From: a virus
Virus record (IMG/VR): IMGVR_UViG_3300042988_000771
Span: 1 to 64,000 of that record
Direction: 5' to 3' (one strand)
DNA length: 64,000 bases
A program made the position numbers and the translations under genes. Positions 29,857 through 54,169 of the stretch are shown here, in pieces (within the stretch, counting starts at the first letter, position 1; every line of letters begins with the position of its first letter). The notes below the pieces were generated by a model, which saw nothing but the letters and a program-made list of their open reading frames with translations, was not told the DNA's origin and searched no databases.

Positions 29857-30223
29857 TTAGACGCTCCCTCTGGCGGGCATGGCCCTCCTTGACGTAGGAG
29901 CCTATGGCGATGACCCCCACCGCCAGCCCCAGCCACACCCCTATGGCATCCCAGCCGTGGTCCACCCCGATGAACACGCTTCTGGTCACGGTCGTGAAGC
30001 CGGTGAGGATGAACCCCACCGAGAGCATCCGGGAGTTGTTGACCGCCCATCCTGCGGTGATGGACACCAGTGCCACCGAGGCGAAGGCGATGAGCAGGTC
30101 GGACAGGAAGAGGTTCTCGATCACGTCGATGTGGAAGAGGTTGAACGCGAGGATTCCGAGCAGGTAGAGGCTCAATCCCAGCCCAACCGGGTGCCAGCCG
30201 CGCTTGTTGATGAACCTGATCAT
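29840..30223 (-). CDS. Four-helix membrane protein
   Basis: 127 aa with about four predicted membrane helices (residues 14-30, 42-62, 67-85 and 95-112) and short loops; ends with a basic tail HARQRERLN. No family recognised. Next to another membrane gene, so the two may act together in lysis or membrane modification. Confidence 0.52.
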   Translation of the reverse strand: MIRFINKRGWHPVGLGLSLYLLGILAFNLFHIDVIENLFLSDLLIAFASVALVSITAGWAVNNSRMLSVGFILTGFTTVTRSVFIGVDHGWDAIGVWLGLAVGVIAIGSYVKEGHARQRERLNVARS

Positions 30224-48650: not shown

Positions 48651-49070
48651 ATGAAGATGGGAGCGCCGTTGTTCAACCACGATCTGACGGCCTTGGAGCA
48701 CAAGATCGACCTGCTTGCCCACGCCCTTCACCACATCGACGCACGACTAGACAGATTGGAACACCGCATGGCTACTCTCGAAGAGGTCACCGTTGCCCTT
48801 GAGGCCGCTGTCGACCGCATCGGCACGATCCTGACGGACGTCACGGCCGTCGCTACCAACGCACAGGCCGCTGCCACCGCAGCGCAGGAGGCCCTCGATG
48901 CCGCGAACGCCGCGGATGCCACCGAGGACGCCGACTTCCAGGCGCAGATCGACGCGCTGACCGCTGCCCTCACCGAGGCGCAGGCTGCTCTCCAGGCCCA
49001 GGCCGACGCGAACACCAACGCCGCTGCGCTCGTGCAGTCGCAGGTGGACGAGCTGAACGCCCTTCAGTAG
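48651..49070 (+). CDS. Coiled-coil protein
   Basis: 139 aa from ATG 48651; ATG 48657 or 48768 are alternatives, none with a clear ribosome site. After residue 10 nearly all helix: HKIDLLAHALHHIDARLDRL, then a long Ala/Glu/Asp/Thr heptad region up to the end (ALTEAQAALQAQAD). Compositionally like small phage spacer or fibre-core proteins. The following terminator hairpin closes its unit. Confidence 0.6.
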   Translation: MKMGAPLFNHDLTALEHKIDLLAHALHHIDARLDRLEHRMATLEEVTVALEAAVDRIGTILTDVTAVATNAQAAATAAQEALDAANAADATEDADFQAQIDALTAALTEAQAALQAQADANTNAAALVQSQVDELNALQ

Positions 49071-50046: not shown

Positions 50047-50075
50047 TTGAGTCACACACGAAAGTGTGGTAAACT
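50047..50075 (+). promoter_or_regulatory. Promoter with CACAC-N6-GTGTG operator
   Basis: TTGAGT at 50047-50052, TAAACT at 50070-50075, spacer 17 nt made up of CACACACGAAAGTGTGG, an inverted repeat shared almost exactly with the promoter near 53.03 kb. Confidence 0.68.
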
Positions 50076-51238: not shown

Positions 51239-51268
51239 TTGACACTAAGTGTTAGGGTGTGGCATACT
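51239..51268 (+). promoter_or_regulatory. Promoter with related operator
   Basis: TTGACA at 51239-51244, CATACT at 51263-51268, spacer 18 nt. The spacer contains ACACTAAGTGT palindrome parts and GTGTGGCATACT, resembling the GTGTGGTARACT of the two sister promoters. It starts 3 nt after a stop codon. Confidence 0.62.
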
Positions 51269-51519: not shown

Positions 51520-51527
51520 CCAAGGCG

Positions 51528-51571
51528 AGCCCGCATAGGCGCAAGTGCCAGGTTCGAATCCTGGGCGGGCT
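51528..51571 (+). ncRNA. tRNA-like acceptor/T-arm minihelix
   Basis: AGCCCGC (51528-51534) pairs perfectly over 7 bp with GCGGGCT (51565-51571); directly inside the 3' strand is a perfect T-arm CCAGG TTCGAAT CCTGG. A 13-nt linker replaces D and anticodon arms. Size and stacking are those of the top half of a tRNA. No CCA is encoded. Lies in the 5' leader of the next gene. Confidence 0.5.
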
Positions 51572-51575
51572 GCTA

Positions 51576-51599
51576 AGCCCCAGTCAACCGGCTGGGGCT
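51576..51599 (+). promoter_or_regulatory. CCCCAG-type leader hairpin
   Basis: 8-bp perfect stem AGCCCCAG/CTGGGGCT with an 8-nt loop and TTCTTC after it, 23 nt before the start codon. Same design as the hairpins at 50139, 51301 and 53136. Confidence 0.5.
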
Positions 51600-51622
51600 T
51601 CTTCAATGATGAGGGAGTCATC

Positions 51623-51925
51623 ATGAGCATCTTCACCGACTTCACCGCAGCCCGCGAGACCCGCTACCCCGTGGGTGCCTATGTCGGGTACGACGGTTCC
51701 GTCGCAGAGTTCAAGGGCCACTGCGCCTTCGTGACGGACAGCGTCACGCTGGGCAGCGAGACCCGCTACACCCTCCGGTTCGGTAGCCGGGACGCCCTGA
51801 CCAACGTCAGGGGCCAGTCGATCTACTACGTCGCCATCACGCCTGAGACGCGTGAGCGCGGCGAGGCCATCCGCCGAGCGTGGATGCTCAAGCGGGGCCG
51901 ACTGAACGACCCCTACGCGAAGTAG
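51623..51925 (+). CDS. Small beta-rich protein of unknown function
   Basis: 100 aa; GAGGGAGTCATC before the ATG. YPVGAYVGYDGSVAEFKGHC and a YTLRFGSRDALTNVRGQS strand set suggest a small SH3-like barrel; Arg/Lys-rich helix at the end. The hammerhead ribozyme starts right after its stop codon. Confidence 0.58.
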   Translation: MSIFTDFTAARETRYPVGAYVGYDGSVAEFKGHCAFVTDSVTLGSETRYTLRFGSRDALTNVRGQSIYYVAITPETRERGEAIRRAWMLKRGRLNDPYAK

Positions 51926-51930
51926 GGAGC

Positions 51931-51981
51931 AGGGCGAAACGCCGTGAGGCGTCCGCGGGTTGGTCCCGCGCTGATGAGCCC
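51931..51981 (+). ncRNA. Type II hammerhead ribozyme
   Basis: In order: GGGC (stem II 5'), GAAA core (51936-51939), stem III CGCC/GGCG closed by GTGA, A-U pair and cleavage-site C (GUC, cut expected after 51953), stem I CGCGGG/CCCGCG closed by TTGGT, core CTGATGA (51971-51977), and GCCC (stem II 3'). Every invariant core position fits the hammerhead consensus, with stem II open, that is type II. It lies between two genes and would cut their shared mRNA 54 nt before the downstream ATG. Confidence 0.8.
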
Positions 51982-52006
51982 ATCAGACAGCGGTGAGGGA
52001 GTCACC

Positions 52007-52183
52007 ATGACCAAAGACGAGTACATCCGCGCTCAGTTCCAAGCGCAGATCGACGTCGCCTCGCTAGAGCTGACCACCACCCCGCTGGGGCGTCTGCTGG
52101 CTGTCGTCAGCGGCACTCCTCCCCTGGGGTGGACGAAGGAGCAGTTCGAGTCCGCCGTCGCAGCCCGCGGCGGTGTGCTGTGA
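52007..52183 (+). CDS. Small helical protein downstream of the ribozyme
   Basis: 58 aa; GAGGGAGTCACC before the ATG. MTKDEYIRAQFQAQIDVASL helix, a loop, then a WTKEQFESAVAARG helix: an alpha-hairpin protein. No known motif. Its mRNA 5' end would be set by the hammerhead cut. Confidence 0.55.
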   Translation: MTKDEYIRAQFQAQIDVASLELTTTPLGRLLAVVSGTPPLGWTKEQFESAVAARGGVL

Positions 52184-53160: not shown

Positions 53161-53183
53161 TTCGTCATGTTGAGGGAGTCATC

Positions 53184-53714
53184 ATGTCCAAGTCCGACAA
53201 CGCTCTGACCGTCGCCAAGATCGCTGGCCTGTTCGCGCTGGCCGGTCTCGCAGGCTACGGCGCCTACGTGCAGGCAGAGGCCGAGGCCGCCACCGAGGCG
53301 ACCGACGACCTGGCGACCCGCTTCGCCAAGGGCCTGCTCACCGAGGAGTACACCTTCTCGGGCATCCGCCGCACCAACGAGAACACCGTCTTCGTCCTCC
53401 ATGTGGTGGGCAAGGATGAGCAGTTCATCGACATCGCCCTCCAGCAGGGCGAGCAGGCGCTCGTGATCGACACCAACCTGCCCGGCGTCAAGGTCGGCAA
53501 GGCTGTCGTCATCACCAACGAGCGCCTCAGCGCGGAGGTTGACCGCTACGTCCGCACGGGCCACTCCTACTACGCGACCGATCGCCGCGTGCGGTTCTTC
53601 AGCATGCCGTTCGGCCAGCGCAACGAGGCCTTCCTCTTCGAGGTCCTCAAGAAGGGCGAGTTCGTCCCGATGTTCCTCGCGAACACGACGGACATGACCC
53701 TCTCGGTGCTCTGA
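53184..53714 (+). CDS. Membrane-anchored or exported protein
   Basis: 176 aa; GAGGGAGTCATC before the ATG. Residues 8-28 form a membrane helix or uncleaved signal (VAKIAGLFALAGLAGYGAYV), followed by an Ala/Glu helix and a beta-rich domain (TVFVLHVVGKDEQFIDIALQ). The end is hydrophobic. First gene of a unit controlled by the operator promoter. Unknown function. Confidence 0.6.
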   Translation: MSKSDNALTVAKIAGLFALAGLAGYGAYVQAEAEAATEATDDLATRFAKGLLTEEYTFSGIRRTNENTVFVLHVVGKDEQFIDIALQQGEQALVIDTNLPGVKVGKAVVITNERLSAEVDRYVRTGHSYYATDRRVRFFSMPFGQRNEAFLFEVLKKGEFVPMFLANTTDMTLSVL

Positions 53715-54169
53715 TGGAGCGCATCGAGCCCAAGCCGGGAGGCATCGTCCTCCCGGTGTTCGAGGAGAACGCCATCGTGCTGCATGCCGATGGGCAGTTC
53801 CACACCGTGGAGTTCCCCGAGAGCGAGAGTGAGCTGAACACGCTCCTCCACTCCACGGTGAACGGGTCACCGGAGCGCGTCGCCACCTACGTGGAGGGCG
53901 AGCGCTACGACCTGTGGGTCAACGACGAGTTCCTCGTCATCCCTGACCCGCCACCGTTCAACGTCATCGCGACGTTCTTCCACATGCTCGGACTCAAGGA
54001 CGAGTTCAAGGACACGGCCTTCATCGCGGGTGACGCCATCCTCACGGGTGGCGTCTCCTGGGATGGCATGACCCAGTCCTTGCGTCCCGAGCAGACCATG
54101 GCGCTCCTTGATCTCATCGCCTCGATCAAGGAAGCCGTCGAACACCATAGGAGGCGCATGGAGGGGTAG
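53714..54169 (+). CDS. DUF3846-like protein
   Basis: 151 aa; ATG overlaps the previous stop (TGATG). Alpha/beta, with DGQFHTVEFP opening, YVEGERYDLWVNDEFLV, then FNVIAT and FIAGDAILTGG, the N-x-x-A-T...GD-x-x-x-xG pattern I associate with the DUF3846 family of small actinobacterial and phage proteins. Function of the family is not known to me. Confidence 0.5.
   Translation: MERIEPKPGGIVLPVFEENAIVLHADGQFHTVEFPESESELNTLLHSTVNGSPERVATYVEGERYDLWVNDEFLVIPDPPPFNVIATFFHMLGLKDEFKDTAFIAGDAILTGGVSWDGMTQSLRPEQTMALLDLIASIKEAVEHHRRRMEG

Follow-up and report, generated by a model that had tools for sequence, protein, structure and literature searches.

The window considered here is a stretch of 64,000 nucleotides that covers the opening 64 kb of an IMG/VR virus record 78,015 bases long. 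Its DNA polymerase is closest to the DnaE-type polymerases of Gordonia and Brevibacterium phages (35–37% identity), and because its nearest counterparts come from such phages, the host is probably an actinobacterium. No near-identical phages were found for positions 30001–55000, and the sole syntenic relative recovered, the locus L149, shares 59 matching reading-frame hits and a DNA polymerase that is about 85% identical. On the + strand of the window two small genes of unassigned function follow each other, one at 51623–51925 (100 aa) and the other at 52007–52183 (58 aa). An IMG/VR search with the upstream 100-aa protein returned no relatives, and among the neighboring proteins compared with PHROG none was matched except that of 53714–54169, which hit one family of unknown function. 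The downstream gene is preceded by a ribosome-binding site, GAGGGAG (51995–52001, +), which a possible hairpin, GGUGA-GGGAG-UCACC (51992–52006), would place in its loop.

Several other elements are visible in this part of the genome. The start-site module TGAGGGAGTCAyCATG is repeated, both in the window (51992–52006, around 51604–51625 and 53171–53186) and in L149 (11559–11575 and 11832–11846), and in several copies the ribosome-binding site GGGAG constitutes a 5-nt hairpin loop on a stem that varies between copies with its pairing kept. Just 5' of the small-gene cassette, at 51239–51268, there is a promoter-like element (TTGACA-18-CATACT with a TG extension) that is conserved in L149, and GTGTGG repeats related to it occur at 50050 and 53024. 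A tRNA-like element at 51527–51574, devoid of full D and anticodon arms, combines an acceptor-like 7-bp stem (AGCCCGC/GCGGGCU) with a T-arm (CCAGG-UUCGAAU-CCUGG) and is followed by a terminator-like hairpin at about 51575–51600; it is conserved in L149, resembles the 3' halves of phage tRNAs and has a fold z-score of −3.05, and ARAGORN called no tRNA in it.

Between the two small genes lies, with near-certainty, an RNA predicted to cut itself: a type II hammerhead ribozyme (51932–51981, +), recognized by direct reading, by the phage covariance model R2 and by Rfam RF02276, which reads GGGC-GAA-ACGCC(GUGA)GGCGU-C|CGCGGG(UUGGU)CCCGCG-CUGAUGA-GCCC. It begins with the 5' strand of stem II (GGGC, 51932–51935), seen both by eye and by a structural descriptor, which pairs with the 3' strand GCCC (51978–51981) to form the open end of the motif. 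There follow the core bases G12 A13 A14 (GAA, 51936–51938), which are invariant in alignments A1 and A2, and the stem III hairpin (51939–51952, ACGCC-GUGA-GGCGU), with a GNRA-type loop and the A15.1–U16.1 pair, which covaries among relatives. The cleavage site predicted from its position relative to the core falls between C17 (51953) and N1.1 (51954), and beyond it come the stem I hairpin (51954–51970, CGCGGG-UUGGU-CCCGCG), evident from reading and from comparison with L149, and the core segment C3–A9 (CUGAUGA, 51971–51977). Stems I, II and III thus comprise 6, 4 and 5 bp, with stem II open and stems I and III closed by loops, as in the type II permutation. Every position of the core set is there (C3 U4 G5 A6 N7 G8 A9, G12 A13 A14, A15.1–U16.1 and H17, the last being the C at 51953 in a GUC triplet), and the core-adjoining pairs 1.1–2.1, 10.1–11.1 and 15.1–16.1 are C–G, G–C and A–U. 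This direct reading agrees with the original prediction as to the fit of the core, the A–U closing pair, the GUC triplet, the G–C pair at the base of stem II and the site after 51953.

The motif also stands out statistically. In the 64-kb window the structural descriptor found 51932–51981 and one weak, implausible match, and none of 150 dinucleotide shuffles, searched on both strands, attained stems of 5/6/3 bp. Model R2, which was built from 37 phage hammerheads with the window copy and its nearest relative left out, gave 51932–51981 a score of 53.5 bits in the window (E = 2.9e-14) and its runner-up E = 0.21, these E-values being rough. In the 78,015-base record the phage model found no second clear copy, and additional hammerheads elsewhere in the record were rejected. 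RF02276 gives the same 50 positions 29.6 bits (E = 9e-4 in 1 kb), which falls short of the gathering score of 37, and at that threshold the window has no match; the 37 bits are a detection cut-off rather than a property of the molecule. This low score might be taken to mean that the motif is a decayed or inactive look-alike, and 4 of 18 consensus-fitting hammerhead RNAs proved inactive in vitro, according to Perreault et al. 2011 (PMC3088659). That reading is nevertheless highly improbable, given the intact core, the R2 E-value, the compensation of stem I changes in L149, and the fact that the sister hammerheads of L149 and of another phage locus, L140, likewise score below the Rfam threshold.

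The comparison with L149 is instructive in another respect. Its alignment with the window reaches the start of the gene preceding the ribozyme, and both flanking genes are then non-homologous; at L149 12342–12396, set against window 51932–51986, the ribozyme and the tail that follows it persist, and just two pairs of stem I differ, both in a compensated manner (G–C to A–U and G–C to C–G). Such compensated changes, in L149 and across the relatives at large, back the three-stem architecture. With a model built independently of the window copy, covariation in a syntenic locus and hundreds of phage relatives, the assignment to type II hammerheads that had been proposed for this site is well founded. 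Since the ribozyme has been conserved while both neighboring genes were replaced, it may mark the boundary of a gene cassette.

A BLAST search of 50,697 phage records with the ribozyme retrieved the Streptomyces phages R4, phiELB20, Paedore, Loofah, Spernnie, phiRKBJ001, Wentworth and Puginator, with the similarity confined to the ribozyme in all eight, and a pattern scan of IMG/VR with a strict filter yielded at least 235 hammerheads in 114 of 123 loci, with up to 9 per locus. These hammerheads sit in tight intergenic gaps between co-directional genes: the upstream stop codon lies a median of 3 nt before stem II and the next start codon a median of 26 nt 3' of the motif. In the window the genes are likewise co-directional and the stop codon of the upstream one is 6 nt before stem II, a position which, as in the relatives, is consistent with the suggestion made for this site that cleavage might separate the mRNAs of the two small genes. 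Type II arrays are found in the small-gene regions of R4 (8 copies by the phage covariance model, 9 by Rfam), Spernnie and Paedore (7 each by the descriptor), phiRKBJ001 (5–6), Wentworth (4–6) and Puginator (3), and are absent from the record annotations shown for these phages. In R4 (NC_019414.1) the annotated starts of gp79 (an acetyltransferase) and gp77, at 48913 and 48230, are AUGs within the hammerhead core CUGAUGA; they are probably misannotations, with the true starts likely downstream.

What distinguishes the window copy is the strand that follows it. The tail CAUCAG (51981–51986) is complementary to the core itself, such that C3–G8 can pair with it in a hairpin, CUGAUG-AGCC-CAUCAG (51971–51986, +; 6 bp and −5.7 kcal/mol in isolation), which shares 51981 with stem II and is attested by conservation and covariation. 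As the core bases concerned pair with a tail directly past stem II, this anti-core fold and the active fold are mutually exclusive. We define the anti-core subclass by the presence, at or just past the end of stem II, of a CNUCAG complementary to CUGANG inclusive of position 7; the window copy, with U at position 7, belongs to it. Position 7 is the sole variable base among the six core bases and therefore affords a clean test of covariation. In equal-effort scans of IMG/VR the matched combinations U7...A and C7...G occurred in 45 and 56 stretches and the mismatched combinations C7...A and U7...G in 6 and 24; under the strict hammerhead filter the counts were 22, 29, 1 and 6, respectively (window copy included), and all six filtered U7...G cases have their tails at offsets of 7–9 instead of 3–5. 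When position 7 and its partner were both left free, 47 of 47 viral matches were paired (28 C–G, 18 U–A and one G–U), and a free scan of 257 billion bases of genomes returned a single match, which is bacterial, unpaired at position 7 and without hammerhead stems. For INDEPENDENCE, the 47 tailed loci fall into at least 19 nucleotide-similarity groups, at least five of which contain both pair types; L140 has, within a single phage, two hammerheads with identical stem I letters, one of them U7/A and the other C7/G. The anti-core hairpin is thus conserved, and covaries, across dozens of phages; with the rest of the core fixed and one of the six pairs free to vary, covariation here means a single position together with conserved complementarity. 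An alignment of 25 tailed sequences has 99.6% standard pairs over the hammerhead and anti-core helices, with position 7 as U–A in 14, C–G in 11 and unpaired in none, though, holding the window and having been chosen for the tail, it serves as an illustration and not as a test. Some further tails, AAUCGUUAG, form 7 bp with CUGACGA, one of which is G–U (L136 13784, L177 10413, L179 11790 and L200 2897); these are likely to be additional anti-core hairpins containing a wobble, outside the exact-scan counts. Two BLAST probes for isolate phages with the anti-core tail produced only short matches, of 20–26 letters.

A rival account would be a plain mRNA-processing hammerhead whose tail complementarity is incidental and without a role. 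It coincides with the published picture of phage type II ribozymes (PMC3088659), and most phage hammerheads are without an anti-core tail; the existence of many such copies, those of the isolates R4 and Wentworth included, means that the hairpin is dispensable for the use of the ribozyme in general. However, among 207 hammerheads sampled without selection, 7 have the exact anti-core hexamer as their tail, as opposed to a mean of 0.16 for permuted hexamers, i.e., an approximately 40-fold over-representation, and the joint change of position 7 and its partner, with both pair types present in five phage groups, contradicts an incidental origin. We accordingly regard an incidental tail as quite improbable. 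Chance complementarity as such was rejected by the free scan, the permuted hexamers and counts split by the length of stem II.

These split counts bring out a further regularity. Where stem II has at least 4 bp, tail–core pairing scores of 12 or more (wobbles allowed) occur in 24 of 88 cases against an expected 2.8, and where it has at most 3 bp in one of 119 against an expected 2.9. Pairing between loop I and the tail—the published pseudoknot feature, counted as at least 4 loop-I/tail pairs, and common rather than universal—shows the opposite pattern, being strong with a stem II of at most 3 bp and, in the anti-core-tailed class, no better than with swapped loops; hence, the possibility that the tail of the subclass is the published pseudoknot strand was rejected. 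In the window itself, the loop UUGGU could form only a wobble-dependent pairing with the tail segment AUCAG, or alternatively one of UGG with CCA. These opposite dependences on stem II suggest that a tail does one of two jobs, and it seems from the sequences to be either a pseudoknot partner or an anti-core strand. Judged by these comparisons, the anti-core hairpin seems to take the place of the loop-I/tail pseudoknot where stem II has at least 4 bp. The tailed hammerheads have a characteristic build: stem II is 4 bp in 45 of 52, loop I has 3–5 nt in 50 of 52, and the tail–core complementarity ends at C3 in 46 of 52.

This last property also bears on a reading in which CTGANG...CNTCAG is an inverted repeat with a role independent of the ribozyme, be it as a 5'-end stabilizer, a translation element or a site bound by a protein in DNA or RNA. 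Hairpins at the 5' ends of mRNAs slow their decay, and in the window and its relatives the repeat is situated just 5' of the ribosome-binding site. Nevertheless, the pairing covers exactly the core from C3 to G8, the variation tracks the one free core position of the ribozyme, and a mere stabilizer would not need to reuse a catalytic core; we consider such an independent role improbable.

Nearest-neighbor energies, which ignore the tertiary contacts of the hammerhead and Mg2+, place the anti-core fold below the active fold in 51 of 52 sequences, by 3.2 kcal/mol on average. In the window the two stand at −26.6 and −26.1 kcal/mol, a gap of only 0.5, and such near-equal folds do not allow a lock to be told from a rapid exchange by energy. 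When folded in a 201-nt context, the sequence has a predicted energy minimum some 10 kcal/mol under the active fold. In 48 of 52 cases, as tallied by script, the 3' cleavage product has a fold of stem I plus anti-core hairpin that lies no more than 1 kcal/mol above the minimum.

A course of events compatible with this would start with the hammerhead cutting the phage transcript at 51953/51954 during its synthesis, which would give the upstream and the downstream gene separate mRNAs. The cut, Mg2+-dependent if it follows the hammerhead type, would leave a 5'-OH and a 2',3'-cyclic phosphate. The upstream mRNA would have the stem III hairpin as its 3' end, about 28 nt past its stop codon, and the downstream mRNA would begin directly with the stem I hairpin, leaving no base unpaired at the 5' end. 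Since synthesis of the ribozyme finishes at 51981 and that of the hairpin at 51986, the ribozyme would have a head start of about five nucleotides, after which the tail strand 51981–51986 could pair with C3–G8 and dissolve the active site along with stem II. On a cleaved RNA the anti-core hairpin would form abutting stem I, release the upstream fragment (which only 4 bp hold), prevent religation and shield the 5'-OH end, so that the downstream mRNA would start with two adjoining hairpins ahead of its ribosome-binding site. On an RNA not cut in time it would freeze the ribozyme in an inactive state, and some polycistronic mRNA might persist. To this combination of co-transcriptional mRNA separation with the anti-core hairpin as a subsequent lock—against religation, capping the 5' end and inactivating late RNAs—we would give an even chance. 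A more tentative extension, possible though clearly less probable, is that the ribozyme times itself, having one short co-transcriptional chance to cut before being permanently turned off with the reversal blocked.

Alternatively, the hairpin might act before cleavage as a regulated off-switch, keeping the ribozyme inactive until its core is freed and thereby letting cleavage alter the expression of the two genes; the release might come from a protein or metabolite, from the speed of transcription or from a ribosome reaching the end of the upstream gene. The mutually exclusive, near-isoenergetic folds of the window are in keeping with this, as is the stop codon adjoining stem II in most relatives, from which it follows that a ribosome terminating there would sit over the ribozyme's 5' half. 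Yet neither a third strand nor a ligand-binding domain nor an anti-anti sequence was seen, the hairpin is completed only after the ribozyme, which thus gets its head start, and most relatives favor the hairpin by 2–5 kcal/mol, so that a pure off-switch would be mostly off. We therefore hold such a switch to be doubtful, though not remote. Of the original prediction regarding 51971–51986, the competing hairpin stands as real, conserved and covarying, while the suggestion that it is a switch gives way to a lock or latch, which fits somewhat better.

The ribozyme as such is of an already known kind. The anti-core hairpin is absent from the tail of the Rfam consensus, and in the literature on type II and phage hammerheads, religation and alternative hairpins, taken mainly as titles and abstracts and largely outside the subscription journals, we found no anti-core tail; with the subscription literature for the most part out of reach, it is likely, if not certain, that this subclass has not been described previously. 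It has its own anatomy, with a 4-bp stem II, a short loop I and no loop-I pseudoknot, and a conserved, covarying strand that can dismantle a freshly made catalytic core is a direct clue that selection keeps a means to stop or seal the reaction. If self-timing is true, RNA sequence alone would let the phage fix how much of its mRNA is cut and how much stays whole, with the speed of transcription or translation possibly adjusting that proportion. An anti-core ribozyme might also provide a compact building block of natural origin for the timed processing of RNA.

The closest published counterparts are the type II hammerheads of Perreault et al. 2011 (PMC3088659; RF02276), a study that reports prophage hammerhead arrays that flank genes and cleave in vitro, and proposes as a possible role the cutting of long transcripts into gene-length mRNAs. 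The permutation, the core and the intergenic position are common to both. In the consensus given there, the tail past stem II forms a pseudoknot with loop I, whereas that of the window subclass pairs with the core; the latter differs further from the published type II in its 4-bp stem II and loop I of 3–5 nt, and the window has a single copy instead of an array. R4, phiELB20, Paedore, Spernnie and Puginator (Arquatrovirinae and similar) belong to the small set of named phages whose DNA resembles the window element, the stem III hairpin of which is identical to that of one R4 copy. The R4-type arrays nevertheless differ in having 3 to 9 copies per phage, a stem II mostly of 3 bp and a pseudoknot-type tail in lieu of the anti-core one. 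The hammerheads of phiRKBJ001 and Wentworth are like that of the window in their 4-bp stem II, short loop I and location between small genes, but unlike it in that stem II nearly abuts the ribosome-binding site and the anti-core tail is lacking. A parallel might also be drawn with the hammerheads of viroids and satellite RNAs, in which a transient active fold gives way to a competing inactive one within the long rod-like folds of circular RNAs. That likeness is an analogy of working and not a family relation, for in the present case the competing fold is a 6-bp hairpin adjoining the core, in a phage mRNA.
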